This document shows positions 3,391 to 47,863 of a DNA stretch of 64,000 bases, one piece after another. Numbering within the stretch: position 1 is the stretch's first letter; every line of letters begins with the position of its first letter. The position numbers and the translations under genes are program-made. Source of the DNA: Hansschlegelia quercus (lineage in GTDB: Bacteria; Pseudomonadota; Alphaproteobacteria; Rhizobiales; Methylopilaceae); NCBI RefSeq assembly GCF_004310425.1, contig NZ_SIUB01000005.1, forward strand, positions 124,001 to 188,000, in the 5' to 3' direction. The notes below the pieces were generated by a model that worked only from the letters and a program-made list of their open reading frames with translations, was not told where the DNA came from and ran no database searches.

Positions 3391-3392
3391 CC

Positions 3393-31846: not shown

Positions 31847-32248
31847 TCAGTTCGCCTCTGAGGCGGTCGCTTTCACCGTCTTGCGAACGGGCGCCTTGCG
31901 CTTCGGCGCGACCGCGATCTCGTCCCCGAGAGTCTCGTCGCTCGACTTGCGCGCCTCGACCGCGTCGAAAGCGGCGTCGGCGCCGTCCTCGAAGCCGCGG
32001 CGAAGCGCATTCCCGGCGGGCAGAAGCTCTTTCAGGAAGACCGCGCCGAAGACGAGGCCGAAGGACAGGCCATAGGCCGTCTTGTAGGCGCCGACGCCGG
32101 CGACCTCGCCAGTCTTGGCCGCCGCCGACTTCACCGAAGCGCCGGCGGTCGCGCCCGCGGCGCTGACATATTCGGCGGCGGTCTCGAGCGCGTCGCCGAG
32201 GGATGAGAAGGTATTGCGCTCGGAGGTGGCGAGAGCGGTGTCAGACAT
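31847..32248 (-). CDS. small Ala-rich protein with one possible membrane helix, paralogue A
   Basis: A 133-residue protein I cannot assign to a named family. Layout: NTFSSLGDALETAAEYVS start, Ala/Gly/Thr-rich helix to about 50, GAYKTAYGLSFG leading into a hydrophobic stretch ending in LKELLP (about 53-76), an RRGFEDGADAAFDAVEAR helix, then a Lys/Arg/Ala-rich tail. It is clearly paralogous to the protein at 37217-37645; both sit on the minus strand beside P-type ATPase genes. The plan recalls mycobacterial PacL/DUF1490 chaperones of P-ATPases (a helix with Ala/Glu repeats next to a membrane segment), but that similarity is structural impression only. Confidence 0.7.
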   Translation of the reverse strand: MSDTALATSERNTFSSLGDALETAAEYVSAAGATAGASVKSAAAKTGEVAGVGAYKTAYGLSFGLVFGAVFLKELLPAGNALRRGFEDGADAAFDAVEARKSSDETLGDEIAVAPKRKAPVRKTVKATASEAN

Positions 32249-32332
32249 CTGGATGTGACCTTTCTTCAGGCTTTTCCGCGACGGCGTTGCTGCCGGGACG
32301 TTTGGAGACGGAGAGCGAGGCGCGCGCTGCGT

Positions 32333-33829
32333 TCAGGCCAGGCGCTCCGCGCCGGCGCCGAACTGAAGCTGAACGTCGGCGACGGCGCCTCTGACGTCGG
32401 AGATCATCCTCGGCCGGCGGATGCGTTCGGCCAGCAGCCATGCGGCGCCGACCGCCATGTATCCGAGAAAGATCGACGCGAGGACGGAGTTGGTGTGATC
32501 GATCGGCGGGAACAAAGCGCTTCCCGGCAGGCCGACCGTGCCGAGCAGCGGCAGGGCCATGAACGCCACGCCGCCAACCGAATAGGCCACCGCGCGCGCC
32601 GACAGCTTACCGATCGACTGCAGATAGAGCGGGGCCGCGACCGTGATCAGGATGTAGACCAGGATAAAGCCGAAGCTGCACAGCGTGCCGAAATAACCCT
32701 GCGCGTCGAACGGCGTGACGCCGGCCATATAGATGGCCGCGGGCGCAGCGAAGGTGATCGCCGCCGAGACCGCCACCGCGATATGAGGCGTCCGGTTGGT
32801 TTCGTGGGCCTCGCCGAGCGCCTCGAAGAACAGCCCGTGGCGCGCCATCGAGAAGATGATGCGGGCGGTCGAATTGATGGCGGCAAGCGTGCAGGCGAAG
32901 AAGCTGAGAGCCACGCCGATGGTGATGATCGTGCCGAGCGGACCCCAGCCGAGGCTGGACGCGAGGTAGTTCAGCGGCGCTTCGGAGGTCGCGAGCGATT
33001 CCGGCGCGCCGTGGAACCCCAGCACAACCACATAGGCCATGAAGATGAAGACGATTCCGGAGAACAGGACGCTGTGCGTGACCGCGCGGGGGATCGACTT
33101 CAGCGGATTCTTGGCCTCCGCGCCGAGCGAACTCGCGCTCTCGAAGCCGGAAAAGCCAAAGACCACGAGGACCACGCCGACCAGGATCCCGCTCGGGGTG
33201 CCGCCCTCAAGCCGGAACTGAGCGGCGTCCACTTCGAAGCCGTGGCTCGACCAGATGATGATTCCGAGCACGACGATGGAGATGAGAGCGACGACCTCGA
33301 AAACCAGCATCGTCTTGGCGGAGAGCTGGATGTTGCGCATCGCGATCCAGCAAGACGCCGCCGCGCCGCCCGCGAACCAGACGAGCATCGGCGCATGCAA
33401 TCCGGCCGCCTGCTGGAGAAGGACGTCGCCGACGATCGCGAAGCCGCAGAGCGTCGACATGCCCGTCAGAATATATGCGAAAACGAGCGCCCATCCCCCG
33501 AGGATGCCGGCGGTCGGGCCGAGGCCCTGGACAATGTAGCTGTAGAGCGAGCCCGGCGACGCCGAGCGCGTGGTGAACTGGTTGACGTTGAGGCTGACCA
33601 GCACGAGGCCGAGCATCCCGAGCGCAAAGCTCAGCCAGGCGCCGTTGCCGGCGGACGCGAAGATGAGGCCGAGAATGGCGGCAGGGACGGTCGACGGCGC
33701 GATGACCGACACCGACTGGGCGAGGACTTCCGGATAGGAAAGACACGAGCGGCGAAGTTCCGTGGGAGCTTCCTGGGTGGATCCGCCTTCAAATCCATTC
33801 TGATCCGAATAAGCCGCCCGTGATGTCAT
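32333..33829 (-). CDS. APC-family amino acid permease
   Basis: A 498-residue transporter with about 12 hydrophobic helices. The first helix region (LAQSVSVIAPSTVPAAILG) has the APC signature, and helix 6 carries FGFSGFESASSLGAEAKNP, the substrate-site motif of this superfamily. The substrate is not readable; it may be an amino acid or amine. It lies on the same strand as paralogue A (84 bases downstream) and 401 bases from the P-ATPase stop, so it may or may not belong to that island. Confidence 0.87.
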   Translation of the reverse strand: MTSRAAYSDQNGFEGGSTQEAPTELRRSCLSYPEVLAQSVSVIAPSTVPAAILGLIFASAGNGAWLSFALGMLGLVLVSLNVNQFTTRSASPGSLYSYIVQGLGPTAGILGGWALVFAYILTGMSTLCGFAIVGDVLLQQAAGLHAPMLVWFAGGAAASCWIAMRNIQLSAKTMLVFEVVALISIVVLGIIIWSSHGFEVDAAQFRLEGGTPSGILVGVVLVVFGFSGFESASSLGAEAKNPLKSIPRAVTHSVLFSGIVFIFMAYVVVLGFHGAPESLATSEAPLNYLASSLGWGPLGTIITIGVALSFFACTLAAINSTARIIFSMARHGLFFEALGEAHETNRTPHIAVAVSAAITFAAPAAIYMAGVTPFDAQGYFGTLCSFGFILVYILITVAAPLYLQSIGKLSARAVAYSVGGVAFMALPLLGTVGLPGSALFPPIDHTNSVLASIFLGYMAVGAAWLLAERIRRPRMISDVRGAVADVQLQFGAGAERLA

Positions 33830-34230
33830 GATGCCGTTGCGCCTCTCGTAAGTTCCGGTTGCTTATCGATCCCGCTCTTGGATCGCCTATGTGCTGGTCG
33901 CTTGAACCCCGGCTTGTCGCACAACTGCCGGACGCGCCGGCGAGGCGCTGAGGCGGCATGCAGTCTTGCGGATGCTCTTCGTCGACGCGGCTTCGGAGCG
34001 CGGCCGACATCGTCACTAACCTGACACATCATGCAGTGCGACTACGGATTTCGCAATGCAGTGCTGCAAAAAAAATCCTTCTAACTCACTGAGAGTAAAA
34101 AGAATTCTATAAGTCTACTAGGAGTATGCTCTTTCTTGACGAGCCTCCGGCTGCTGCGTTGCACCTGAGCAAGGCGTGCATCGATGCGTCAGGTCGGTGG
34201 CCGGCGCGGCGCGGCAGCGCCACGCGGTCC
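33830..34230. other. 401-base intergenic region with an A/T-rich stretch
   Basis: No credible gene. Bases 34060-34130 are unusually A/T-rich for this DNA (a run of eight A, then AATTCTATAAG), and probably carry promoter or terminator signals between the P-ATPase and the permease. I could not fix a promoter on either strand. Confidence 0.4.
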
Positions 34231-36801
34231 TCACCTCAGAAGGAGACGTTCCTTCTCGGCGCGCAGAGCCGTCGCCTTCCGCAGCGGAAGAAGTCCGTTG
34301 CCGACCGCCAGCAATCCGCCGATCTGGTTGAAGATCATCGAGTGCATGACGCCGAAGCCGCCGAAGAACGCGCCCGCGATGCAGATGACGTTCGGGACGA
34401 TGACGAGGCCCCAGCTTCGGTTTATGTTTCGATGGAGGTTGGTGGATACGTCATGGAGCTGCAGAAGCTTCAGGAGACTGTCCTCCATCAGCACGACCTG
34501 CGCGGTGTCTGTCGCAATGCTCGAAGCGCCGCGCAGAGAGATCGAGACGTTGGCCTTCTTCAGCGCGATGGAGTCGTTCACGCCGTCGCCGATGAAGCAC
34601 ACGGTCCGACCTTCCTTCTGGAGCAGCTCGACATAGCGCGCCTTGTCCTGGGGCAGCACCTCGGCGAAGTGCCGGTCCATGCCGAGCCGCTCCGCGAGGC
34701 GGCGCGTGGGCTGCTCGTGATCGCCCGAAATGATCGCTAGGTGTTTCGCGCCGCGAGCGCGCAATCCCCTGATGATCTCGGCCGCCTCCGGACGCTCCGA
34801 AGCGCGGAGTTCGAGAGCGCCGCCGAGCTTTCCGTCGACGCTCACCATGACGAGCGAGTGCCCCTCGGCATGCGCCGCCTCGAGCTCCCTCTCGACGGAA
34901 GAGGGAAGCTTCACGCCTTCATGGGTCATGTACCGCGCGCTGCCGACCCGCACGACATGGCCCTCGACCTCGACCCTGATGCCGTAGCCGACGTCGTATT
35001 TGGAATCGTCGGTGCTCGGCACGCTGACGCCGAGCGCGCGCGCCTTGGCGATGATGGCCTTCGCGATCGGGTGGCTGAAGCGGTTCTCGGCGGACGCCGC
35101 CCAGGCGATGATCTGGTCCTCCGAATCCCCGTTATAGGTGAGGATGCGGCCGACCTCGGGCTGCTCGCGCGTCAGCGTCCCGGTCTTGTCGAACAGGAAT
35201 GTGTCGACCTTCCGAAGCGTCTCGAGCGCGCGGCCGTCCTTGACCAGCACGCCGTGCTCGGCGCTCAGCGTCAGCGAGCTCAGCATGGCGATCGGCGCCG
35301 CCATGCGAATGCCTGTGCCGAGATCGCAGTTCACCACCGCGGTGGCGCTCGCGACGCCCGTAGTCGCGAGGCCGAGAGCGCCCAAGGCAAGCGTCGGGGC
35401 GACGGCCTTGTCGGCGAGCTCCTCGCCGCGGGACTGAGACTTCAGCTTGTAGCCGGCGGTGTCGTTCAGGATCTGCGCGAGCTTGGCGGAGGTTGTCTGG
35501 TCGCCCGCGCTCGTCACCGCGACGCGCACCTTGCCGCCGATCACGGTGGTGGAGGCGAGGACCTTGTCGCCCTTCAGCTTTTCGACCGGCGCGGCTTCGC
35601 CGGTCAGCGTGTGCTGGTCGATCATCGCCATGCCGTCGACGACCTCGCCGTCGACGGGCACGGCCTCGCCGGTATGCACGACGATGACGTCCCCGACCTT
35701 GAGGCGCTCGAGCGGGGTCTCGACCTCGGTCCCGTCGACATCGAGCCAGACGAACCGGGCCTGCTTCCCGAACACGTTCAGGAGCATCTTCTTGGAATCG
35801 TCTTCGGTCTTCTCGACGAGCTTTCGGGAAACGCTGAGCGTGAAGCCGAGGACGGTGCCGGCCAACACCTGGTTGGTCGCGAGGCAAGCCGCGACGACGA
35901 TTGCGTCGAGCACGTCCACGCCGAGGCGTTTCTCCTTGAACAGGACTTCGTAGGCGCTCTTGAAGCTCGGGATCACCGAGAACAGGAACAATGCGGCGCT
36001 GAGCGGCGTGAGGCCCGGAACGAAGAAGCGGCTGACCGTCGCGAGGGCCACCGAGGCGGTCGCTATCGGCAGGTCGAGATCGACGGGCGAAAGAGGAACG
36101 TCCCCGGTCGAGACGACTGCATAATCGAGCAGCTCGACGATCTGATCGGCGCGGATGACCTTCGGATCGTGGTGGACGAGAACCGTCCCGGTTAGCTCGT
36201 TGGTGGCGTAGCGATCGACGCCCAGCGTGTTCATGAACTCGCGTTCGATCGCCTGGCAGAGTTCTCGCCGACGCAGGATTGCGGGATTGTAAAGGCGGAT
36301 GCGGCCGGGGATCGCGCTCCGGACCGTCCATGTCGACAGCCGCTCTCCATGGCGGCGCAGCCTCACCTCCCGGGACGTTCCAAGATCGAAATCCTCCGGC
36401 AGCTTCAGCTCGGGCGCCTGCGGCGGCGAGGTTCGCCCCGACAGCGCTTTGCCGAGCTCGGCGATGCGGCTGTCGTCTCTTGAAAGCGGCGCCCCGAACT
36501 TCACCTGAGCGACGCGCTTCGCGCCGTCCACAGCCACTTCGACGACGCCGGACGATCGGAAGGCGCGCTCGAAGAAAGTCCGGGCGAGTGGTCCGCGCGG
36601 GCTCACGAACAGGCTGTCGCTCGCGAACTGCACCGTGTCATCAGACGGAAAAGTCACGTGAAGCTCGGACGCCTTCGAGCGGGGCCGCCGCGCCCCCCGC
36701 GAGCGCTGGCCGCCGCTGGCGGCATGCGACGCGGCCGTTCGACCGGACTGCCGGGCGGCGGAACGATCGGACCTAGGCGAAGACGATGTGTTCAGCGTCA
36801 T
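34231..36801 (-). CDS. P1B-like P-type ATPase with HMA_2-type N terminus and no CPC motif
   Basis: An 856-residue cation pump. Order: basic Ser/Arg-rich tail (1-45); a small domain (about 46-120); a heavy-metal-domain-like fold without CxxC (about 158-228, GRIRLYNPAIL to TGTVLVHHD); membrane helices from about 245; actuator TGEA (400-403); membrane helix 6 with NCDLGTGIR (491-499) where P1B pumps have CPC; DKTGTLT (538-544); HP motif (577); GDGVNDS (738-744). All catalytic motifs are intact, so it should hydrolyse ATP. The metal is unknown because the CPC site is replaced; only one Cys remains there. It is preceded on the same strand by two small protein genes. Confidence 0.88.
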   Translation of the reverse strand: MTLNTSSSPRSDRSAARQSGRTAASHAASGGQRSRGARRPRSKASELHVTFPSDDTVQFASDSLFVSPRGPLARTFFERAFRSSGVVEVAVDGAKRVAQVKFGAPLSRDDSRIAELGKALSGRTSPPQAPELKLPEDFDLGTSREVRLRRHGERLSTWTVRSAIPGRIRLYNPAILRRRELCQAIEREFMNTLGVDRYATNELTGTVLVHHDPKVIRADQIVELLDYAVVSTGDVPLSPVDLDLPIATASVALATVSRFFVPGLTPLSAALFLFSVIPSFKSAYEVLFKEKRLGVDVLDAIVVAACLATNQVLAGTVLGFTLSVSRKLVEKTEDDSKKMLLNVFGKQARFVWLDVDGTEVETPLERLKVGDVIVVHTGEAVPVDGEVVDGMAMIDQHTLTGEAAPVEKLKGDKVLASTTVIGGKVRVAVTSAGDQTTSAKLAQILNDTAGYKLKSQSRGEELADKAVAPTLALGALGLATTGVASATAVVNCDLGTGIRMAAPIAMLSSLTLSAEHGVLVKDGRALETLRKVDTFLFDKTGTLTREQPEVGRILTYNGDSEDQIIAWAASAENRFSHPIAKAIIAKARALGVSVPSTDDSKYDVGYGIRVEVEGHVVRVGSARYMTHEGVKLPSSVERELEAAHAEGHSLVMVSVDGKLGGALELRASERPEAAEIIRGLRARGAKHLAIISGDHEQPTRRLAERLGMDRHFAEVLPQDKARYVELLQKEGRTVCFIGDGVNDSIALKKANVSISLRGASSIATDTAQVVLMEDSLLKLLQLHDVSTNLHRNINRSWGLVIVPNVICIAGAFFGGFGVMHSMIFNQIGGLLAVGNGLLPLRKATALRAEKERLLLR

Positions 36802-36833
36802 GGGCTCGATTACTCACCGGGGGACGAGTTGCT

Positions 36834-37142
36834 TTAAGCGCGGTGGGCGCCGTCGTGCGGCGCCTCGTGCGTACGGGCGGCCGGGCGCGAGGCCGCACGC
36901 CGTTCGGCGTTCAAATCCTGCAGCGCCTCCTTGCGCTCCAGCGCGCTTCGCGCCGCGCCGGCATAGGCCGCGCCGAGAAGCTCGGCGCTCCAGGACAGGC
37001 CGCCGCTGACCGCAGCGAAGAGGTCGCGGAACAGGAATTGCGTTTCGGGCAGCCGCTTATGGACGATCTCGAAATTGGGGTTTGACAGACGAGCGGGCGG
37101 CAGGGGCCGCCGTGCGGCGGGGGGTCTCGATGGCGTGGTCAA
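36834..37142 (-). CDS. small protein upstream of the P-type ATPase
   Basis: A 102-residue protein of no recognised family. A TTG start has GGAGG eight bases upstream. Layout: Pro/Arg-rich N terminus (1-20), the segment VHKRLPETQFLFRDLFAAVSGGLSW (25-50), a small-residue hydrophobic stretch SAELLGAAYAGAA, and a charged helix (ALERKEALQDLNAERRAA). The stop is 32 bases before the ATPase ATG, so the genes are probably co-transcribed. It is short, amphipathic and ATPase-linked like the neighbouring paralogue B, though I see no clear sequence homology between them. Confidence 0.65.
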   Translation of the reverse strand: MTTPSRPPAARRPLPPARLSNPNFEIVHKRLPETQFLFRDLFAAVSGGLSWSAELLGAAYAGAARSALERKEALQDLNAERRAASRPAARTHEAPHDGAHRA

Positions 37143-37216
37143 GGAGGTCCTCCGGTCGCAAGACCATGATGAAATCGGGCGCGCGACGGTCGCTGCGCAC
37201 GCGCCCGTCGGTCGGC

Positions 37217-37645
37217 TCAGACAGCCGCCTTCTTCGTCACGCGCACCGTCTTACGAGCGCGCGGGGCGGCGGGCTTGCGACCGTTCGCCTGCTCCTTGAG
37301 TTCGTCCTCGAATTCGTCGCCCACGACCGGCGACGCGCCGGCCCTGCGTGCGGCCACCGCGTCGAAGGCCGCCTCGGCCCCTTCTTCGAGCCCACGGCGA
37401 ACCGAACTGTTCTCGGGCAGCAGTTCTTTCAGAAAGACGCCGCTGAACACGATGCCGAAGGACAGGCCGTAGGCGGTGTGATAGGCGCCCGTGCTGACTC
37501 CCGACTTCACCTTGCGGGCGGCGACCTTGGCCTGAGCGCTGGCGTTCGCGCTTGCGTCGCCGATGCTCTCGGCGGCCGCCTCCAGCGCATCTCCAAGAAT
37601 GGAAAAAGCGTTCGCTTCGTTGGGATCGGCGACCGTCGCAGCCAT
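37217..37645 (-). CDS. small Ala-rich protein with one possible membrane helix, paralogue B
   Basis: A 142-residue paralogue of the protein at 31847-32248. Shared segments: NAFSILGDALEAAAE, GAYHTAYGLSFG, LKELLP and RRGLEEGAEAAFDAV. A single moderately hydrophobic stretch (about 56-80) lies between two Ala/Glu-rich helices; the tail is basic. ATG 37645 has AAGGAAA upstream and replaces a TTG one codon earlier. It is the first gene of the minus-strand run small protein B - small protein - P-ATPase. A role as a membrane partner of the ATPase is proposed from position and repeated association only. Confidence 0.72.
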   Translation of the reverse strand: MAATVADPNEANAFSILGDALEAAAESIGDASANASAQAKVAARKVKSGVSTGAYHTAYGLSFGIVFSGVFLKELLPENSSVRRGLEEGAEAAFDAVAARRAGASPVVGDEFEDELKEQANGRKPAAPRARKTVRVTKKAAV

Positions 37646-38060
37646 CAACTCGTTTCCTTCTTACTGTTGCTCAAGCGGCCCAAGTCTCTGGGCTGCAGCG
37701 TGGTTCTGGTCGCGAAGGCGACGCAACGCGGCGACTGTGCTCCGGGGCAAAGATGAGGCCGGCCCTGCTGGCGACGGCTCGCCAGCCTGAGAACGCCATC
37801 ATTCACACCGCCATCAGACAAACTATCTAATCCATAGATTGTGTCTTGAGATCGTTACCGAGAGCGGCCATTGTTGTCAAACCGGACGACGGTCGATCCG
37901 TCGGCTACCGGCCTGCAACGGACGAAGCATCAGCGATGGACAAGTTCCCTCTGAACCTTCGCAAAACTGAAGCAGAAGCAGGCCATCAAGCGGCTGACGC
38001 AGATAGGACCCTGAGTCGTCCCGGCCGCGCGGCGCATATCGTCAAAGAGGGCAGTCGGCT
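37646..38060. other. divergent intergenic region with a possible leader peptide
   Basis: This stretch separates paralogue B (minus) from exoD (plus). A 42-codon frame at 37936-38064 begins MDKFPLNLRKTEAEAGHQ and its TGA overlaps the exoD TTG (TTGA), so it could be a coupled leader peptide, although its ribosome-binding site is poor. Upstream, 37800-37850 is A/T-rich (ATCTAATCCATAGATTG) and is the likeliest promoter area. Confidence 0.35.
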
Positions 38061-38990
38061 TTGATCATCGCATCACGCGTCAGGCCCAGCTCCGAAGCCG
38101 AGCGGCCGCCGATCACGCGAACATCGGATTTGCTTCGGAACGTGCTTGCAAAGAATCCTGACGTCCAAAGTTTCTCCATCGGAGACATCCTGGATTCGAT
38201 CGGGACTGAGAGGGTCGAAACCTCTCTGATGCTGTTCTCCGTTTCGGCGTTTCTTCCGGCGCCCGGCGCACCCGCATTCAGCCCGCGCGCCGCCGCCGCC
38301 GTCGGCGCCCATTTCGCCGCGGGCCGCACCGAGTTCAAACTGCCGAAGGCCATCCTCGAAAAGCAGGTGCCGCGCCGTTCGTTGGCGGTCGCGATTCATG
38401 CGCTTCTGCCGGTCATGGAGTTCGCGGAGAAGAGGACGCGGGCGAGGCTCGCCTGGACCAGCCATCCCGTCAGCCGCTGGATCGTCGGGGTTCTGGTCTT
38501 CATCCTCGCCGCGACGATCGCGTTTCCCGTGATCGGCTTCGACCCGCTGCACGCCATGTCGATCTTCGTGATCTCGCTCGGTCTCGCCGAAAAGGATGGG
38601 CTCGCGATCATCCTTGGCGTGATTGCGGGCTTGCTTTCGCTGGGCCTTGTCGCGCTTTCAGGCGTCAATCTGCGTGCGTTGCGCTCGAAGATCGGCAAGT
38701 GGGTCGGCAAGCTGACACGCCGTCTAGGCTTCAGGGCGCTCGCGAACTACTGCCAGCGCCGAGGCTGGGAACGGCTCGCCGCAATCCTTCGGTTCGAGTG
38801 GGCCGACCTCTTGCTTGCATGGGATCCGGAGCGTCGCGCTGGCGCTGAAGCCGGCTTGGCGGAGACGGCGGGCGCATCCGATCCGTCGATCGCGCGTCGC
38901 AGCATCAAATCTGCGCGGTCAAATGGACGGGCGGAGGCGGCGAAGGCTAGAGATCACAAGATCGGGCGGGGGCAATTGGCCACGGCATGA
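38061..38990 (+). CDS. exoD: ExoD-family exopolysaccharide synthesis protein
   Basis: A 309-residue ExoD-type membrane protein. Seen: a cytoplasmic N-terminal domain with SIGDILDSIGTERVETSLML and FLPAPGAP..SPRAAA, then hydrophobic helices at about 140-160, 165-185 and 190-215. Rhizobial exoD mutants have altered exopolysaccharide and alkali sensitivity, but the biochemical role is unknown. It has a TTG start. The C-terminal extension (about 255-309) is polar and may not be conserved. It overlaps the next gene by four bases. Its link to the flanking P-ATPase genes is positional. Confidence 0.82.
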   Translation: MIIASRVRPSSEAERPPITRTSDLLRNVLAKNPDVQSFSIGDILDSIGTERVETSLMLFSVSAFLPAPGAPAFSPRAAAAVGAHFAAGRTEFKLPKAILEKQVPRRSLAVAIHALLPVMEFAEKRTRARLAWTSHPVSRWIVGVLVFILAATIAFPVIGFDPLHAMSIFVISLGLAEKDGLAIILGVIAGLLSLGLVALSGVNLRALRSKIGKWVGKLTRRLGFRALANYCQRRGWERLAAILRFEWADLLLAWDPERRAGAEAGLAETAGASDPSIARRSIKSARSNGRAEAAKARDHKIGRGQLATA

Positions 38991-39310
38991 AGCGCGAAAA
39001 GATATTCGAGTTCTCGATCGAGAAGCCGCTGAACGCGACGCGACGCAAATCGCTCGAAAAGAACATCGAGAAGAACGCCTCGCTCGCCCCGAAAGATTTC
39101 GAGTACGGGTGGGACGAGGACGACGACAATCTGCTTCACATCGTCATCGATCCAGTCGAGATCGAGATCAGCTTCCTCGCCGACAAGGTCGAGCTCTTCG
39201 CAACGGCCCCGCTATGGGCGCGCGTCGCGTTCACGCAAAAGCGCAAGGCCGAGGTCAAGCAGCTCGTCGAGAGCGTGCTCACGGATTCCAAGTTCGGACC
39301 GAGAGCCTGA
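38987..39310 (+). CDS. small cytosolic protein resembling polyhydroxyalkanoate-system family
   Basis: A 107-residue acidic/basic soluble protein. The C-terminal pattern VEIEISFLADKVELFATAPLWARVAFTQKRKAEVKQLVESVL resembles small proteins annotated as polyhydroxyalkanoic acid system proteins (one beta sheet plus a C-terminal helix). It overlaps exoD by four bases (ATGA), so it is translationally coupled. It converges on the pseudo-ATPase gene 20 bases away. Family assignment is tentative and the function unknown. Confidence 0.55.
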   Translation: MKREKIFEFSIEKPLNATRRKSLEKNIEKNASLAPKDFEYGWDEDDDNLLHIVIDPVEIEISFLADKVELFATAPLWARVAFTQKRKAEVKQLVESVLTDSKFGPRA

Positions 39311-39329
39311 TCTCCGGCTTCCGTTGGCG

Positions 39330-41780
39330 TCAGTGATGGATCGATGATCGCAGCCGGGCGTCGCGGCCCTCGCGTTCCTGCACGAGCGCATCGAGCTGGC
39401 GGATGTGCTGGGCGTAAACCACGGCAGTGCCGAGGTTGGAGAATAGACCGGCGCGAAGGCTTCCGAAGCCTGCGAGAAACGTGCCCGCCACAGCAAGCAG
39501 GTTCGCCGCGTAGACCGTCTTGTAGTCGGCCTTCAGCCGGCGGCGGTGCGCTGCGCCAAGGTCCGCGAGATCGAGCAACCCTGAGAGCCGTCCCTTAAGC
39601 AGTTGGATGTCGGCGTTGTCGCCGGGTGCTGATGAGAGACCGGCAAGCGAGACGCTGACGGCGCTTGCGGTCATCGCCTCCCTCGAATCCTCATGAGAGC
39701 CGTCTCCGATCCAGACGACTGCGCGGGGAAGGGACCGGATGAACGCCGCCTTCTTCCGCGCCGTCAGTCCGCTTGCGACGTGCTCGATCCCGGCGCCTGC
39801 CGCGATCGTCTGCGCTACGGCTTCAGCGCGCCTCGAGACATAGACGAAACGGGCGGACGGCGTCTTAGCCTTCAGCGCCCGAATCACGGCTTCGGCTTCC
39901 GGCGCGCCGCTCCGCCCGAACGTCACCAAGCCAATTGGCGAGCCGTCTCGCACGACCCATAAGGGCTTTGGCTGCCCCTCGCTCGTCGCGCGCGCAGCTG
40001 CGGCCTCGAGCCGAGCCGGCGCTTCGAGCTTCGACAGCGCGAACCGGGCGGGCGACAGTAGTTCGATCGTCTGGCCGACATCATCACGAAACACGACGGC
40101 GCCCGCGCGGCGCAGCGTCTCCGGCCCTGGAATGGTTACGCTCCGAGACTCCAGCAAGGCGCGGATCGCCCGTCCGCGCTCTGAACGCAGATCGGGAAAG
40201 CCGACCGCCGCGTAAGCCAAGATCTCCTTGTCGGAAGCACCGTTGACCAGCACGTTTGAGATCGCGACGGCGCGCCGATCAAGCGCGGCGCTGTCGTCGA
40301 ACACGAAGAGGTCGAATTCGCCGACCTTGTCCAACGCCGCCGGGTTGCGGAAGAAAAGTCCGTGGTCGAGCGCTTTCGCCAGATCGTAGAGCGCCGAGAA
40401 CTGGGCGCTGATGCGCGGCGCCGTCGCGTAGTCCGGTCGGATCACTGCCTGCGAAGGGCGCAGCACGCCCGTAGCGAGAAAGCTCAGCGCCGAGAGCGCC
40501 AGGGCCGGCTTCGCATTGCGGTTCGCGACGAGTTCAGCGACGGCGGACGAAGGCAATCCGTCTACGAAGGCGTGCGGCAAAGACTTCGCGATATGGGCGG
40601 CGGCGGTCGCCGAGCCGGACTGCCTCACGCGGATGACGACTTCTCCATCCCGAAGGAAGGCGCCGGCGTTCACGGGGTCGCCGGGAGCGAGATCCGCATC
40701 GCCATCCGGATCGTTGGCGAGTGCGTCGACAATTGCCGCCACGCCTTCCGTTACGACGCCGTCCACCGGCACGAACTCGCCGCGTCGAACCACGACGAGA
40801 TCGCCGGGCTTAAGGTCATCGACGTGGATCTCGACGTTCACCCCGTCGTCTTGCGGCAGCCGAGCCCAGGCGTGGCGCTTACGGCGGGTCGCGAAGAGCT
40901 TGCGCTGACGATCGATGATCGTACGCTCGGCGAGATGCGGCCAAAGCTGCATGAGCAGGGCCATGATCGTGCCTGTCAGTGGCAGGCCTGTGATGAAGAG
41001 GAAGGCGAGGCCGGTCGAGTAGAGCGCGGGCAGGCCGACCTGGCCGTGCCGAAGCTGGCGCGCCGCGAGCGCGACGTTCGGCGCGCTGAAAAGGGCGACG
41101 CCCGCCACCGCCACTGGGCGCAAGGCGGGAATGGCGAACTGCCCGGCCGCGGCGAGAGCGAGAAGGCCGCCAGCGGCGTAGAGACGCGTCTTGGCGGGAG
41201 GCCCTTCGATCCCGCTCAGCACCCGAGGCCATGCGGCCTCCAATTCACGAGCGATCTTCGAAAGGGTCAGGACGCTGGCGTCGAATCGGAGGCGGACGCC
41301 TCCCGTGAGCCTGCTCGACCGGAATTCCTCAACCCCCACGATTTCGGCCAGAACCTCCTCCAGCCGGAAGGCGACGTCGCGGCGGCCGCGCAGGATCGGG
41401 TGGGCGACTCGCAGATGGTCTTGGCCTTCGGACCGCATTCGCCACGTGGACAGCACGTCCCCGACCTTGGTGACGCGGATAGGCCAGGGAGCCGCGCTGT
41501 TCAGGAACAGGCCGGAGGCGTCGTGCGGCGCTTCCACAGCGCCTCGCAGGGAGGCGTTTAGCCGCCTCCAGATCGCGGCCGCGTCTCGGGTGGCGGCATA
41601 GGACAGGCGAGCGAAGCCGCCATCGGGTCGGATCTCGACCCCGCTCACGTCGGGCACCGAGAAGGCGCGGCTCACGAACTGGCGAAGGTTGTCGGCGTTC
41701 GCGCTTCTGAAGAGGGCGTCGCTCCAGATCGAGACGCCGTCGACGCCAGGCGCGATCTTGAGCTTAGGCGCAGCACTCAT
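39330..41780 (-). CDS. catalytically degenerate P-type ATPase paralogue
   Basis: An 816-residue protein with the same layout as the ATPase at 34231-36801: N-terminal domain (DGVSIWSDALFRSANADNLRQF), HMA-like fold without CxxC (about 120-185), membrane helices, actuator, P and N domains, C-terminal helices. The catalytic motifs are gone: the TGEA loop reads ANDPDGDADLAPGD (355-368), DKTGTLT reads DDSAALD (495-501), GDGVNDS reads GDGSHEDS (692-699), and helix 6 has no Cys (RPDYATAPR). The reading frame is intact over 2.4 kb, so it is a maintained pseudoenzyme and not a decayed gene. ATG 41780 overlaps the upstream small gene's stop. It may be a regulatory or structural partner of the active pump. 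Confidence 0.82.
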   Translation of the reverse strand: MSAAPKLKIAPGVDGVSIWSDALFRSANADNLRQFVSRAFSVPDVSGVEIRPDGGFARLSYAATRDAAAIWRRLNASLRGAVEAPHDASGLFLNSAAPWPIRVTKVGDVLSTWRMRSEGQDHLRVAHPILRGRRDVAFRLEEVLAEIVGVEEFRSSRLTGGVRLRFDASVLTLSKIARELEAAWPRVLSGIEGPPAKTRLYAAGGLLALAAAGQFAIPALRPVAVAGVALFSAPNVALAARQLRHGQVGLPALYSTGLAFLFITGLPLTGTIMALLMQLWPHLAERTIIDRQRKLFATRRKRHAWARLPQDDGVNVEIHVDDLKPGDLVVVRRGEFVPVDGVVTEGVAAIVDALANDPDGDADLAPGDPVNAGAFLRDGEVVIRVRQSGSATAAAHIAKSLPHAFVDGLPSSAVAELVANRNAKPALALSALSFLATGVLRPSQAVIRPDYATAPRISAQFSALYDLAKALDHGLFFRNPAALDKVGEFDLFVFDDSAALDRRAVAISNVLVNGASDKEILAYAAVGFPDLRSERGRAIRALLESRSVTIPGPETLRRAGAVVFRDDVGQTIELLSPARFALSKLEAPARLEAAAARATSEGQPKPLWVVRDGSPIGLVTFGRSGAPEAEAVIRALKAKTPSARFVYVSRRAEAVAQTIAAGAGIEHVASGLTARKKAAFIRSLPRAVVWIGDGSHEDSREAMTASAVSVSLAGLSSAPGDNADIQLLKGRLSGLLDLADLGAAHRRRLKADYKTVYAANLLAVAGTFLAGFGSLRAGLFSNLGTAVVYAQHIRQLDALVQEREGRDARLRSSIHH

Positions 41781-42019
41781 GCAAAGCTGTGCCCGAGCGG
41801 ACGAGCGACGCGAACGGGGCCTGCATCGGGCCAAGCGGAACGTCTCACCGCCAGTGCGTCGCGCACGGCGTTCGTGATTTCGGCGATGCTTCCGAACGTG
41901 CCGTCCTCGACGGGGTAGGCCTCCCTCATCGTCGAGAAGAATCGGAATTGATCCTGCTCGAGGCAGACGGCGATGCCGGCTTGCCGTCCATCGACGCGCA
42001 CGATCGTGGCGTGACTCAT
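41777..42019 (-). CDS. small protein translationally coupled to the pseudo-ATPase
   Basis: An 80-residue soluble protein of unknown family: MSHATIVRVDGRQAGIAVCLEQDQFRFFSTMREAYPVEDG, then IAEITNAVRDALAVRRSA. It reads like a compact beta-beta-alpha domain that displays a short strand pair and a helix. GGAG lies seven bases before the ATG. Its TGA overlaps the ATG of the pseudo-ATPase (ATGA), so the two products are probably made in a fixed ratio. Confidence 0.7.
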   Translation of the reverse strand: MSHATIVRVDGRQAGIAVCLEQDQFRFFSTMREAYPVEDGTFGSIAEITNAVRDALAVRRSAWPDAGPVRVARPLGHSFA

Positions 42020-42245
42020 CTTTTGTCTCCAGACCCCTCGTGATGCGAGCGAGGCGCGTTCCGGCCCTCAGCCCATGCGCCCGTCAGCTAGAGTTCCGCA
42101 TCGGGCGAAGTCAATGTCTTTCCACAAAATTGCTCGACTTTATAGATTGTTGTTGACAGTTCATGTTGCTGCGCCGCACTTTCGCGTGGCCGCCGAGCGG
42201 TTTCCCCTCGCGATCGGCTCGAAATTTGAGCGCAGGAGCGCATTG

Positions 42246-43154
42246 TTGTCTGACGCTGAAATTGGGCGCGCCCTGACTGATCGGGCCTATTCCCAGCATC
42301 GCCGACCTCCTCGCAAAAGGGGACGCGGGACCACTTTCAGAAAGCCGAGCGCAATTCCAGGCTTCGGAGCGGCGCTCGGATTCACCTGGCTCTATCTCGC
42401 GGTCGTCATCCTCGTACCCCTCGGCGCGGTCGTGCTTTGGACCGGTTCGCTCGGGCCGGAGCGGCTCTGGCAGATCGCGAGCGACGCCCGGGTCGGGCAC
42501 GCGCTGAGGCTCAGTTTCGGCCTTTCGCTCGCCGCGGCTGCTGTGAACGCCGTCTTCGGCCTCATCGTGGCTTGGGCGCTGACGCGATACGACTTCCCCG
42601 GCCGCCGCCTCATAGACGCAGCGGTGGATCTGCCGTTCGCGCTTCCAACGGCGGTCGCCGGCATCGCGCTCGCTTCGATCTACGCCCCGAACGGTTGGGT
42701 CGGCTCGATCATCCCGTTCAAGGTCGCCTTCACGCCGGCCGGCATCTTCGTAGCGCTTGTCTTCATCGGCCTGCCGTTCATCGTGCGGACTCTGCAGCCC
42801 GTGCTGGCGGATCTCGATCGCGAGGTCGAGGAAGCCGCGGCGACGCTCGGCGCCTCACGCGCCTGGGCGCTCCTCAAGGTCGTGTTGCCGACGCTTCTTC
42901 CCGCCCTCCTGACAGGCTTCGCCTTGGCGTTCGCACGCGCGGTCGGCGAGTACGGCTCGGTCATCTTCATCGCCGGCAACATTCCGTACGTCTCGGAAAT
43001 TGCGCCCCTTTTGATCGTGATGCGGCTCGAGGAGTTCGACTACGGCAGCGCTACGGCGGTCGCGACGATCATGCTGGCCCTGTCCTTCGCAATCCTGCTG
43101 TTCGTGAACCTCGTCGAGGCGTGGTCCCGCAAGAGGCTCGGTCATGGCCGCTGA
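42246..43154 (+). CDS. cysT: sulfate/thiosulfate ABC transporter permease CysT
   Basis: A 302-residue inner membrane permease of the sulfate importer, with six helices and the permease coupling loop EEAAATLGASRAWALLKVVLP. The family start motif FRKPSAIPGFG appears at about 33. TTG 42246 was chosen because AGGAG lies seven bases upstream; another TTG at 42243 and an ATG at 42114 are in frame but poorer. It overlaps cysW by 11 bases. No sulfate-binding protein gene precedes it, which is unusual. Confidence 0.87.
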   Translation: MSDAEIGRALTDRAYSQHRRPPRKRGRGTTFRKPSAIPGFGAALGFTWLYLAVVILVPLGAVVLWTGSLGPERLWQIASDARVGHALRLSFGLSLAAAAVNAVFGLIVAWALTRYDFPGRRLIDAAVDLPFALPTAVAGIALASIYAPNGWVGSIIPFKVAFTPAGIFVALVFIGLPFIVRTLQPVLADLDREVEEAAATLGASRAWALLKVVLPTLLPALLTGFALAFARAVGEYGSVIFIAGNIPYVSEIAPLLIVMRLEEFDYGSATAVATIMLALSFAILLFVNLVEAWSRKRLGHGR

Positions 43155-44052
43155 CATCGCGCTTCGTTTTCCTGCAACCACCGCGCCCAGCCGCGAAACG
43201 CCGCCCGCGCCGCCGCCTTCGGCGACCACGGAAACTCCCGCCACGCGCCGGGTGGTGATCGCGATATCTCTCGCCTTCATCGCTGCGGTTCTTATCCTTC
43301 CGCTCGCTGCCGTCTTCACCGAGGCCTTCCGCGGCGGCGTGTCGAAATATCTCGAGAGCTTTGACGACCCCGACACCTGGGCGGCGATCAAGCTGACCCT
43401 CCTGGTGACGGCGATTGCGGTGCCATTGAACGTCGTGTTCGGCCTTGCCGCGTCCTGGGCGATCGCGAAGTTCGATTTCCGCGGCAAGAGCGTTCTTGTC
43501 ACGCTCATCGATTTGCCCTTCTCGGTGTCTCCCGTCGTATCCGGCATGTCCTACGTGCTTCTGTTCGGCGCTCAAGGGTATCTCGGCCACTACCTCGACA
43601 CCATCAATCTGCAGATCATCTTCGCGACTCCGGGGCTTGTCCTTGCGACGATCTTCGTGACCTTCCCCTTCGTGGCGCGCGAGCTGATCCCGCTGATGCA
43701 GGAGCAGGGCTCGAGCGAGGAGGAAGCCGCGCTGTCGCTCGGCGCCGGCGGCTGGCGGACTTTCTGGTCCGTGACCCTGCCGAACGTCCGCTGGGCGCTG
43801 CTTTACGGCGTGCTGCTCTCAAACGCGCGGGCGATGGGCGAGTTCGGCGCGGTCTCGGTGGTCTCGGGCCATCTGCGCGGTCTGACCAACACGATCCCGC
43901 TGCAGGTCGAGATTCTCTACAATGACTACAACTTCGTCGCGGCCTTCGCCGTCGCCTCGGTGCTCGCCGGGCTCGGCCTCGTCACCCTCGCCGTGAAGTC
44001 GGCTCTGGAGTGGCGCTACGCGGATCAACTGGCCGCCGGCCGTCGGCGCTGA
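43144..44052 (+). CDS. cysW: sulfate/thiosulfate ABC transporter permease CysW
   Basis: A 302-residue second permease of the sulfate importer. The N terminus is Pro/Ala-rich and cytoplasmic, followed by six helices. The signature LPFSVSPVVSGMSYVLLFG and the coupling loop EEEAALSLGAGGWRTFWSVTLPNV are CysW-like, as is NARAMGEFGAVSVVSGHLRG. It overlaps cysT and is 11 bases from cysA, forming the standard TWA order. Confidence 0.93.
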   Translation: MAADIALRFPATTAPSRETPPAPPPSATTETPATRRVVIAISLAFIAAVLILPLAAVFTEAFRGGVSKYLESFDDPDTWAAIKLTLLVTAIAVPLNVVFGLAASWAIAKFDFRGKSVLVTLIDLPFSVSPVVSGMSYVLLFGAQGYLGHYLDTINLQIIFATPGLVLATIFVTFPFVARELIPLMQEQGSSEEEAALSLGAGGWRTFWSVTLPNVRWALLYGVLLSNARAMGEFGAVSVVSGHLRGLTNTIPLQVEILYNDYNFVAAFAVASVLAGLGLVTLAVKSALEWRYADQLAAGRRR

Positions 44053-44063
44053 GGAGCAAAACG

Positions 44064-45125
44064 ATGGAACTCAAGATCCGCCACGTCAGCAAAGACTACG
44101 GGACCTTCGCGGCGCTTCATGACGTCAGCCTCGACATCCGATCGGGAGAACTCGTCGCGCTGCTCGGGCCCTCCGGCTCCGGCAAGACGACCCTGCTGCG
44201 CGCGATCGCGGGGCTGGAGACAATCGACGAAGGTCAGATCTTCTTTGGCGGGACCGACGCCTCCCGGACCTCCATCCAGCAGCGCAATGTCGGCTTCGTG
44301 TTCCAGCATTACGCTCTGTTCCGGCACATGAAGGTCGCCGACAACATCGCCTTCGGCCTGCGCGCCCGCGACCGTTCGCGCCGGCCCCATGAGTCCGAGA
44401 TCGCCAGGAAGGTGAAGGAGCTCCTGGAGCTCGTTCAACTGCCGGAACTCGGCGACCGCTATCCCGCACAGCTCTCGGGTGGTCAGCGCCAGCGCGTGGC
44501 GCTCGCCCGCGCTCTGGCGATCGAGCCGCAGGTGCTGTTGCTCGACGAGCCGTTCGGGGCCCTCGACGCGCAGGTGAGAAAGGATCTCCGCCGCTGGCTG
44601 CGGGCGATCCACGAAGAGACCGGACACACGACGGTGTTCGTGACGCACGATCAGGAAGAAGCTCTCGAGCTTGCTGATCGCGTCGCGGTTCTGAGCAAGG
44701 GCGAGCTTCAGCAGATCGGGACGCCCGACGACATCTACGACCGTCCGGCGACGCCATTCGTCTACGCCTTCATCGGCGATTCCAGCTTCCTGCCCATTGA
44801 GGTGCGCGGCGGCGAGGCCGTTCTGGATCGCAGTGTCCTGCCTCTCGGCCAGCTCTCCGCGCCCGACGGCCAGGCCCGTCTCCATGTCCGACCGCAGGAC
44901 GTCGTTCTTCGTCCGACCGGAGAAGGCGTATCAGGACGCGTAACGTTGCTTCGCCGTACAGGCGCGTTCCGGCGGGCCGACATCGAGGTCGGCGACGCCC
45001 GTCGGCGCATCGAAGCGCAGTTGCCGCCGGAACTGGCGATCACCGAAGGCGACGAGGTCGGGCTGCATTTCAACCGCTTCGCCGTATTCCCGTCGGACGC
45101 GCCTCATTCTACGGCGCCGAACTAA
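44064..45125 (+). CDS. cysA: sulfate/thiosulfate ABC transporter ATPase CysA
   Basis: A 353-residue cytoplasmic ATPase of the importer. Walker A GPSGSGKTT (about 34-42), Q loop VFQHYALF, signature LSGGQRQRVALARAL, Walker B LLLDEPFGALDA and switch His in VTHDQEEA are all present. The C-terminal regulatory TOBE-like region (about 240-350) includes LHVRPQDVVL, as in CysA. ATG 44064 has GAGGAGC upstream; the longer frame to 44010 lies within cysW. Confidence 0.95.
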   Translation: MELKIRHVSKDYGTFAALHDVSLDIRSGELVALLGPSGSGKTTLLRAIAGLETIDEGQIFFGGTDASRTSIQQRNVGFVFQHYALFRHMKVADNIAFGLRARDRSRRPHESEIARKVKELLELVQLPELGDRYPAQLSGGQRQRVALARALAIEPQVLLLDEPFGALDAQVRKDLRRWLRAIHEETGHTTVFVTHDQEEALELADRVAVLSKGELQQIGTPDDIYDRPATPFVYAFIGDSSFLPIEVRGGEAVLDRSVLPLGQLSAPDGQARLHVRPQDVVLRPTGEGVSGRVTLLRRTGAFRRADIEVGDARRRIEAQLPPELAITEGDEVGLHFNRFAVFPSDAPHSTAPN

Positions 45126-45649: not shown

Positions 45650-47863
45650 TCAGAACGCCGTCGGATCAAGAAAACGCCGAAGGACATTGTCCGTGATGCG
45701 GGATACGTTGTTGTCGTAGCCGGCGTGAGAAAGGCTCCCCGCCCAAGCCATCGATCCGACCGAGAAAACCGCGCCTTCGTTTGGCGTCTCGAAGAAGGTC
45801 ATGTCGGCGCGCACTGACGGGTTTTCGTCGCCGCCCAGCGCCGGTCCTGTCTCGAGAAACTCCTCGGGCACGATGTAGTAGGCGTTTGTGTGCGCCTCCG
45901 AGCTCGCAACCACGTAGGCGTTGGGCGGCGTGCCGAGCTCCGGAGCCGCGCGGTCGACCTCGAGGCCTGCGGCCCCCCCGCCGATCAGGCCGAAATCGCC
46001 GATGAGCTCGTCCTCGCCGATCCCCTCGAAGATGAACTGGACTTCAGCCTTCAAGCTGTCCGGCGTGCGGCGGTAGTAAGAAGAGAGATCGAACCCCTGA
46101 GCGGCGAAACCGACGCCGACCAGTCCTTGCGGCGCGCGGCCCTGCCGGAGCCAGAGGCCGCCATAGCGACCGTCGAAGCTCTGGTAGTATTCGCCGGCCT
46201 CGGCCGACCAGGCGCGGACGCCGGTCTCCGCCCGGCGAAGCTCGAGAATCCCCGGGCATTCCCTGTGGTAGGCGACCCGCCAGTAGAAGCCGTCGCCGCC
46301 TAAATACATCAGCCTGCCGCCGCCATCGAGATAGCTGCGGGTCGCCTCCCACATCTCGGTCGAGACGTATTCTGGATGGGAGCCCGTGATGACGACCGCG
46401 TAGGGCTCGAGCAGCGCGACGCCACGGTCGTTCAGCTCCTCGTCGGTGATGACGTCGAAGGCGTGCCCCATGGCGTGGAGCCAGTCGATGATGTGGGTGT
46501 CGGCATTGAGGCCCCAGAGCTTCGATCCGCCATAGCCGCCGAGCACTCCTTGAGTCTTCGGCCGCTGGTTGACGATCGGGCGCAGGCGCGACGAGTAGCA
46601 GATCCCGCTGCCGTCGGAGTGGTTGTCATAAAGCGACCCACCATACTCCCAGTGTTCGTTCAGGAAGAGATCGGGCGGGTTGAGCACGTTCAGGATGTTG
46701 TTCAGCAGCTCGCCGTTGCCGCCATCGGTCCCGAGATGGTCGTTGGCGTAGGCCATGTAGGTCGCGTAGGGCAGCAGGAAGGCGATGCGGCTTTCCTTGC
46801 CCGGCGCCGGCGTCACGGTGAACGGGACGTATTCCTCCGCGCCGTCCATCCGAATGCGCGCTGCGTAGAGCGCGCTCGGCATGTCATCAGGAATAACCAG
46901 CGAGAAGTCGGTCTCCCAACCCGCGTCATAGATGTCGTCGTCATGAAAGTGGATCGCGCCCCACTGAGAAGGGTCTTGCTTCCAGTCCATGATCTCGCCG
47001 GTCCAGTTCCAGCCCGCCATCGCGCGGGCGGGAAAGTTGACCACGCGCCCGTGGAGGCCGTCGGACCGCTCGACGGCGCGCTGAGAGTGCATGTCGGCGC
47101 TGAAGTCCCAAGCCGCGATTGGATCTCCTGTCGCGATCGGAGCGTCCGCAGCGAGGGAGGCAAGCGACGCGTCGTCTAGGGGGCTTCCGAAGATGCGCGG
47201 GCTGTCGATCTTGCCGTTGTAGAATGCGCTCACGGCGCGTAGTTCCGGCAGGGCGGCGATGTAAACGGGGGATGCGGCCTCGGCCGGCTTGAAGGAGGCG
47301 GTGACCTTCATCCGCGCCTCGTCCGCGACGCGTGGAACGGGAGCGAGCGGCAGCTGGAACAGCCGAAGCGAGTTGTCTGACGCGTCGAAGCTCGCGCCGA
47401 CATGGTACCAGCGGCGCGCCAGCAGCGGCGCGTCGGACGACAGGGTCTTGACCGAAGTCCCGTCGCCGACCTCGATCGCAAGACAGCCGCTCGCGTCGAC
47501 CATGAGCGCGAAGCCGGCGTCGGCGTCGCGATGCGCGATCACGCCCTGTACGCCCTTCGCCGGGGTCGTCGGCCAGATGAAGGCCTCGACCGTGAAGCTC
47601 TTGAGAGCGGCGAGCGGCGCCGGATCATCGACCGCGACGTAGGAGCCCGCGCGGATCTCCTGGCGGCGGGCGGGATAGCGGCCGTTCGCGGCGCAGGCGA
47701 ACGGGATTTCCTTGACGCCCGGACCTTCCGGATTGTCGTCGCCGCAGACGATACGGACGATCTCGGCTTCGTATTCTCCGGGATCGTCGCAGTTGATCTT
47801 GAAGTCGATGGTCTCTCCGGCGCGGGCGTAGAGCCGGTCGCTATAGCCGGTGATCTTCAACAT
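45650..47863 (-). CDS. dmfA2: N,N-dimethylformamidase large subunit
   Basis: A 737-residue large (beta) subunit of dimethylformamidase, which hydrolyses N,N-dimethylformamide to dimethylamine and formate; the Paracoccus enzyme is about 760 residues. Order: N-terminal beta domain (1-75), a LamG/concanavalin-like insertion (about 75-250), then the catalytic domain with YATYMAYANDHLG, HWEYGGSLYDNHSDGSG and ITGSHPEYVS. The characterised enzyme uses mononuclear iron held by two Tyr and one Glu; suitable Tyr and Glu occur in these motifs but I cannot fix them without alignment. The small-subunit gene lies 13 bases upstream. True substrate here may be another N-substituted formamide. Confidence 0.87.
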   Translation of the reverse strand: MLKITGYSDRLYARAGETIDFKINCDDPGEYEAEIVRIVCGDDNPEGPGVKEIPFACAANGRYPARRQEIRAGSYVAVDDPAPLAALKSFTVEAFIWPTTPAKGVQGVIAHRDADAGFALMVDASGCLAIEVGDGTSVKTLSSDAPLLARRWYHVGASFDASDNSLRLFQLPLAPVPRVADEARMKVTASFKPAEAASPVYIAALPELRAVSAFYNGKIDSPRIFGSPLDDASLASLAADAPIATGDPIAAWDFSADMHSQRAVERSDGLHGRVVNFPARAMAGWNWTGEIMDWKQDPSQWGAIHFHDDDIYDAGWETDFSLVIPDDMPSALYAARIRMDGAEEYVPFTVTPAPGKESRIAFLLPYATYMAYANDHLGTDGGNGELLNNILNVLNPPDLFLNEHWEYGGSLYDNHSDGSGICYSSRLRPIVNQRPKTQGVLGGYGGSKLWGLNADTHIIDWLHAMGHAFDVITDEELNDRGVALLEPYAVVITGSHPEYVSTEMWEATRSYLDGGGRLMYLGGDGFYWRVAYHRECPGILELRRAETGVRAWSAEAGEYYQSFDGRYGGLWLRQGRAPQGLVGVGFAAQGFDLSSYYRRTPDSLKAEVQFIFEGIGEDELIGDFGLIGGGAAGLEVDRAAPELGTPPNAYVVASSEAHTNAYYIVPEEFLETGPALGGDENPSVRADMTFFETPNEGAVFSVGSMAWAGSLSHAGYDNNVSRITDNVLRRFLDPTAF

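Follow-up and report, generated by a model that had tools for sequence, protein, structure and literature searches.

A conserved gene set pairing a P1B-like ATPase with a relative lacking catalytic motifs, together with small membrane-associated proteins, in Hansschlegelia quercus

The window analysed in this work is a stretch of 64,000 nucleotides from Hansschlegelia quercus (contig NZ_SIUB01000005.1, positions 124,001 to 188,000), and coordinates without a locus label are those of the whole stretch. The system of interest is a group of genes at 31847..42019 that encodes two P-type ATPases and several small proteins. The active pump is a P1B-like ATPase of 856 amino acids with an HMA_2 domain (34231..36801, minus strand). 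The second ATPase, here called the pseudo-pump, is an inactive relative of 816 amino acids (39330..41780). Both genes are on the minus strand, both frames are open, and about 2.5 kb separates them, as a sequence-only reading of this DNA had described. That reading had also placed a small gene directly upstream of each ATPase, and this is the case. A small Ala-rich, weakly hydrophobic protein of 102 amino acids (36834..37142, minus strand) is encoded 32 bp from the pump, and a loosely conserved gene for 80 amino acids (41777..42019, minus strand) shares an ATGA overlap with the pseudo-pump start. The pump is bracketed, again as described, by two paralogous small proteins of a family denoted SMA. 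The SMA protein of 143 amino acids (37217..37648, minus strand) is encoded two genes upstream of the pump, with the 102-amino-acid protein between them. Its paralogue of 133 amino acids (31847..32248, minus strand), which is 52% identical to it, adjoins an APC-superfamily permease on the downstream side.

The pump scored 408.8 bits against TIGR01525, over the curated cut-off of 346.25, and is in this respect of P1B type. It also passed the Pfam cut-offs for PF00122, PF00702, and PF19991, and its HMA_2 match scored 32.8 bits (cut-off 30). Its score for the KdpB equivalog was 126.9, below the cut-off of 527.9. Its best sequence matches among solved structures are CopA and the copper and cadmium P1B pumps. 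The motifs TGE, DKTGTLT, HP, SGD, and GDGxND are present in the pump, with NCDLG in transmembrane segment 4 (TM4), in agreement with the earlier description of its catalytic motifs as kept. Motifs were counted in nine pump and pseudo-pump pairs, with genome G007 left out, and the catalytic motifs are intact in all nine pumps of the clade. The ion-site position of TM4 in these pumps reads N-[CA]-D-L-G-T (NCDLGTG in the window, where TM6 has HS...N). NCDLG is found in eight of the nine pumps and NADLG in the pump of the Methylobacterium radiotolerans plasmid pMRAD05 (locus L087). None has CPC or SPC, the forms that an excerpt of PMC8880997 gives for this site in other P1B pumps. The ratio of nonsynonymous to synonymous substitutions (dN/dS) for the pump is 0.17-0.27 (Nei-Gojobori, three pairs).

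The pseudo-pump matches PF00122 with 52.5 bits (cut-off 28.1). TGE is incomplete in all nine pseudo-pumps, which also lack the K of DKTGT, HP, and the ND of GDGxND, and the pseudo-pump is therefore predicted to be unable to complete the phosphorylation cycle. The position of the phosphorylated Asp is Asp in 9/9, a P-domain Lys is found in 8/9, and the Asp of GDG in 6/9. The statement that this ATPase had lost all motifs thus stands for TGE, KTGT, HP, and ND, and is too strong for the phospho-Asp position, which all nine retain. At the TM4 ion-site position, RPD[YF] is found in all nine pseudo-pumps (IRPDY in the window, whose pseudo-pump has no Cys). The two ATPases had been assigned the same HMA-like, CxxC-free N terminus; the N termini do align and lack CxxC, but HMA_2 passes the cut-off only in the pump, and the Pfam scan gave no HMA_2 match for the pseudo-pump. 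The frame of the pseudo-pump had been called intact, and it is open over 39330-41780. Some copies have lost parts: the Hansschlegelia plantiphila pseudo-pump (L052) shows an in-frame loss of about 127 residues in the P1/N region, and a stretch of the A-domain is missing in that of pMRAD05.

The pseudo-pump is not decaying and is maintained by natural selection. Its dN/dS is 0.30-0.40 (Nei-Gojobori, three pairs). In the closest pair, the proportion of nonsynonymous differences is 0.047 in TM4 and 0.264 in P1/N. The pseudo-pump matches are free of internal stops apart from that of G007, an assembly with many broken genes. The pseudo-pumps form one group with 97/97 support in the maximum-likelihood tree. 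Their branching mirrors that of the pumps except within one weakly supported triple, and their branches are longer; at 3.92, the row of pMRAD05 is very long, and its placement is unsure. The pairwise distances of pumps and pseudo-pumps have a correlation of 0.98, which none of 10,000 permutations reached, with shared ancestry still included in this value. Since the dead copy is kept by selection, it is probably a genuine part of an undescribed transport machine. In the Chenggangzhangella methanolivorans stretch (L070 / L053), frame breaks were observed in both ATPases, TauE, APC, one SMA, ExoD, and H107, and these look more like assembly error than gene loss.

Ten sets of these genes were compared, namely those of G000 (the genome of the window), G003, G005, G007, G010, G012, L066, L069, L072, and L087. 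The pump, pseudo-pump, and SMA occur together in 6 of the 13 genus genomes (G000 included), and the other seven have none of the three. The pseudo-pump was found at E<=1e-139 in G000, G003, G005, G007, G010, and G012 among 101 genomes searched, and the pump at >=75% identity in the same six among 61 genomes searched. SMA turned up in six genomes among the 101 relatives and in six among the 397 order members, each time those with both ATPases. A search of 385 class members yielded SMA in G000 and one weak match. For five class genomes, the best-matching pump is 32-42% identical, and no match there reached the level of a pseudo-pump (125-225 bits vs 1257-1312 for the true ones). The pump, the pseudo-pump, and two further SMA loci of G012 are spread over four places, with 1.36 Mb between pump and pseudo-pump, and all parts are retained.

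The named profile scan for the pseudo-pump gave seven loci, from Methylopila jiangsuensis, an uncultured Methylopila, Hansschlegelia plantiphila, Chenggangzhangella methanolivorans, and metagenome-assembled genomes (MAGs) labelled Xanthobacter, Acetobacteraceae, and Rhodospirillales. Four of the seven belong to G010, G003, G007, and G005. The retrieved stretches of the Acetobacteraceae- and Rhodospirillales-labelled MAGs hold the pump, pseudo-pump, SMA, APC, ExoD, and H107. The plasmid pMRAD05 has a pump (46% identity), an unannotated SMA, ExoD, a 614-amino-acid 'hypothetical' protein that is a shortened pseudo-pump, and a 112-amino-acid protein that is a candidate H107 (hhalign probability 77%). 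The SMA gene of this plasmid (L087 2507-2965, minus strand) lies between the P-ATPase and an exopolysaccharide gene and is missing from the incomplete gene table. A CorA-family gene (L087 35509-36405, minus strand) apparently ends after its first membrane helix and overlaps the start of the shortened pseudo-pump. The two ATPases thus co-occur both within the genus and outside it. Small proteins lying mostly away from P-ATPases, or ATPases that rarely co-occur, had been named as signs against the system, and neither pattern was seen in the genomes searched. With the gene set and its sequences conserved in other genomes and dN/dS below 1, the arrangement is more than chance. Near the module in L069, an integrase-like gene (3072-4334, plus strand, Arm-DNA-bind_3) was observed; this gene and the copy on a mobilizable plasmid hint at horizontal spread.

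As judged from sequence and hydropathy, the SMA proteins combine a single hydrophobic stretch that contains GxxxG with an Ala-rich stretch and a basic tail. The dN/dS of the copy at 37217-37648 is 0.15. At least one SMA is present in all ten sets, and in the genus sets it is encoded two genes upstream of the pump. The adjacency of APC and SMA is also found in L051, L052, L053, L054, L057, L066, and L069, and G012 has a third SMA copy after a SulP permease. The small proteins had been read as dedicated partners of P-ATPases, which does not agree with SMA that also follows APC and SulP permeases. Their proposed kinship with the mycobacterial PacL proteins (DUF1490) also found no support: neither DUF1490 nor DUF6110 matched any of 12 SMA members at E<=10 (Pfam, within HMMER's filters), and the two SMAs of the window, with no Cys and 0-1 His, lack the metal-binding C terminus of PacL.

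The remaining members of the set include three genes within the same interval that had been passed over. These are the APC permease (498 amino acids, 32333..33829, minus strand; PF00324 99.4 bits), an ExoD-family protein (309 amino acids, 38061..38990, plus strand; PF06055 116.9 bits), and H107, a 107-amino-acid protein (38987..39310, plus strand) whose gene overlaps exoD and whose AlphaFold2 (AF2) model has a predicted local distance difference test (pLDDT) score of 77.5. ExoD is present in all ten sets, the APC permease in nine (pMRAD05 is without it), and H107 in nine with pMRAD05 uncertain; the dN/dS of H107 is 0.13. The Rhodospirillales MAG encodes ExoD and H107 in a single open frame (L072 5370-6728, plus strand), which suggests joint action of the two proteins. 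Relatives of the 102-amino-acid protein were found in L051-L055, L066, L069, and weakly in L072 (dN/dS 0.45). The 80-amino-acid gene has relatives in L054 and L056, where they precede TauE and the pseudo-pump, and a further one in L057. No Pfam or NCBIfam match over cut-off was found for the small proteins; the scans named the pump, the APC permease, and ExoD. The label of an island is not reflected in base composition, as the GC content is 63-69% from 24 to 50 kb.

The genes for a CysT-CysW-CysA sulfate ABC transporter (42075..45125, plus strand; TIGR02139, TIGR02140, and TIGR00968 over cut-off) flank the set in the window as neighbours and are not a core part of it. Sulfate or sulfonate transport genes over NCBIfam curated cut-offs flank six of the ten sets, and nine of ten with looser calls. 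The six are G000 (CysT, CysW, and CysA; this genome has three CysT-like loci, the flanking one among them), G005, G010, and L072 (each with a sulfate-binding protein), L069 (an SsuA-type protein), and G012 (SsuA-type proteins near the pseudo-pump and near APC-SMA, and a sulfate-binding protein beside SulP-SMA). In G005, CysTWA is 78-84% identical to that of the window, and the only SulP of the genome is nearby. The looser calls add G003 and G007 by TauE, which the G007 assembly has in broken form, and L066 by an edge fragment that resembles CysA. Further TauE genes are in G010, G012, and L069, and further SulP genes in G010 and L072. The earlier grouping of pump, inactive paralogue, and small proteins is retained, and the link to sulfur transport genes, which had been missed, is added to it. 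As a separate observation, a gene for a sulfate-binding protein is repeatedly next to a SulP permease gene and not to ABC genes (L052 253-3044; L058 1442-4393; L067 19495-20349 with G010:C150:20658-21800), and in L072 both genes are present with APC between them. Beyond the Cys genes of the window, a 737-amino-acid protein (45650-47863, minus strand) has no NCBIfam match at E<=1e-20.

We tentatively propose that the pseudo-pump could be a partner without catalytic function in a transporter assembly that SMA organises and that is linked to the transport of sulfur oxyanions, a reading that is quite possible although short of probable. One active P1B-like ATPase would work with a catalytically dead P-ATPase partner in a conserved transport module. 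Since the pseudo-pump keeps the membrane domain, the fixed RPD[YF] of TM4, and the N-terminal domains, it may have a structural or regulatory role as a subunit of the pump. SMA is found beside the pump, APC, and SulP and so looks like a hub for several transporters; it may be the membrane hub that docks the pump and pseudo-pump with APC and SulP transporters in one assembly. Most copies are flanked by transport genes of the sulfate, sulfonate, or TauE type, and the assembly would therefore most likely serve the uptake or efflux of sulfur oxyanions, and the active pump would move a cation through a TM4 site that is without the CPC cysteines. A heteromer of pump and pseudo-pump is plausible by analogy, as oligomeric or multi-subunit P-ATPases are known, and the MgtA dimer, the Pma1 hexamer, and KdpFABC are among the PDB titles of the structure matches. 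In a bolder, Kdp-like form, the Arg-Pro-Asp in TM4 of the dead subunit would be the sulfur-oxyanion path, the live subunit would drive it, and SMA would dock sulfate permeases. We regard this form as very unlikely.

Several points weigh against the proposed assembly. AF2 modelled the pseudo-pump with low confidence (pLDDT 63.8), and the best Foldseek matches of the model are P1B ATPases with TM-scores near 0.35. By the slope of the distances (2.8), the pseudo-pump changes about 2.8 times as fast as the pump, and the mirror test leaves shared ancestry in. Under midpoint rooting, the pseudo-pumps fall on long branches outside all pumps, including ordinary P1B ATPases, and the tree therefore does not show an origin from this pump. 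The set counts are not independent because the genus genomes are related, and both members from outside the order are MAG contigs. The sulfur neighbours were sought by tblastn of all listed loci with 11 queries, and the proteins scanned with profiles were chosen by hand. The rough chance of a sulfur neighbour, 5-12% per genome for 6-15 loci, favours the sulfur link, but this estimate covers only some transporter types in one genome. TauE/SafE and SulP are broad families, no NCBIfam match was obtained for two TauE proteins at the limits used, two SulPs score below the sulP cut-off, and the L066 piece is an edge fragment with a TOBE_3 match under cut-off. No sulfur transport gene was found on pMRAD05, which has a CorA-family neighbour instead, and tblastn gave none in the pump stretch of G012 (L055), which has a Peripla_BP_2 protein instead. 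The Peripla_BP_2 family often serves iron or cobalamin uptake.

The genes may be neighbours only, with P-ATPase, permeases, and small proteins co-regulated without an assembly and an unrelated function for the pseudo-pump. Gene order and strands vary and the G012 parts are scattered, which agrees with this explanation; we consider it rather doubtful given the co-occurrence in every genome found, the similar trees, and the repeated adjacency of SMA and transporters. A metal effluxosome of the PacL kind, where SMA would scaffold a metal-resistance efflux pump and the pseudo-pump would add stability, is unlikely in our judgement. The P1B type of the pump and the small, hydrophobic, Ala-rich SMA with its Gly motif are consistent with it, as is the gathering of several pumps by PacLs that is described in part of PMC13043812. 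Metal-type neighbours are also found in single loci (Cation_efflux in L072, the truncated CorA of pMRAD05, and Peripla_BP_2 in L055), but they do not recur between scanned loci. Neither DUF1490 nor DUF6110 was matched, the window SMAs have no His/Cys metal motif, the TM4 Cys is Ala in the pMRAD05 pump, and the window pseudo-pump has no Cys.

A ferrosome-like organelle, where a P1B6-type pump and small membrane proteins form a membrane compartment, would recall the requirement of ferrosomes for the transporter FezB and the membrane protein FezA, as given in an excerpt of PMC12574912. The module proteins gave no DUF6110 or DUF4405 match, and TM4 and TM6 are unlike the DYSCA and HN forms of other pumps, which makes this explanation improbable to a high degree. 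The loss of catalytic motifs and the fast evolution could also mark the second ATPase as a decaying duplicate that is being lost. This is contradicted by the dN/dS of 0.30-0.40, the RPD[YF] in 9/9, and the lack of internal stops outside G007, and we give it next to no credence.

The proposed assembly shares features with several known systems. Like PacL (DUF1490) with CtpC/CtpG/CtpV of mycobacteria, a small, Ala-rich membrane protein with a Gly motif is encoded beside a P1B-type ATPase; SMA paralogues are found beside several transporters, and PacLs serve several pumps, according to portions of PMC13043812 and PMC9374683. Unlike PacL, SMA has no family match or metal-binding tail and is also found beside permeases, and an inactive ATPase is present. 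The HMA_2 / DUF5132 P-ATPase clusters (e.g. L090, with a DUF5132 match just under cut-off) likewise have a related pump and a small membrane protein. They differ in the separate HMA_2 protein of L090, L091, and L093 and in a TM4 of DYGTG or DYSCA type, and the genomes of L090 and L091 (G424 and G101) gave no match at the level of a pseudo-pump. The order at L090 8180-13449 is DUF5132-like protein, HMA_2 protein, P-ATPase (TM4 IDYGTG), EcsC, and DUF445. A literature search on DUF5132 or HMA_2 returned two papers, both on plant immune receptors.

The ferrosome fez clusters, too, combine a P1B-type ATPase with small membrane proteins. FezA belongs with DUF6110. The module differs from them in that no DUF6110- or DUF4405-like protein was found in it: at E<=1, none of its nine proteins matched a DUF4405-like FezC or a DUF6110-type partner, and none of the 12 SMAs matched DUF6110. 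In KdpFABC, a P-type ATPase works with a non-catalytic transport subunit, and the fold matches of the pseudo-pump include KdpB; but that subunit, KdpA, is not a P-ATPase, and our pump misses the KdpB cut-off. No conserved, dedicated, catalytically dead P-ATPase partner was described in the literature searched for inactive, pseudo- or degenerate P-type ATPases, and a term search of a 2023 review (PMC10654040) gave 0 occurrences of 'inactive' and 'heterodimer'. The sulfur link makes the question of the substrate approachable in the cultured Methylopila jiangsuensis and Hansschlegelia plantiphila. Should the two ATPases form a complex, they would be a natural system for the role of a P-ATPase membrane domain without its engine. 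P-type ATPases with small subunits are already known, and some are dimeric.

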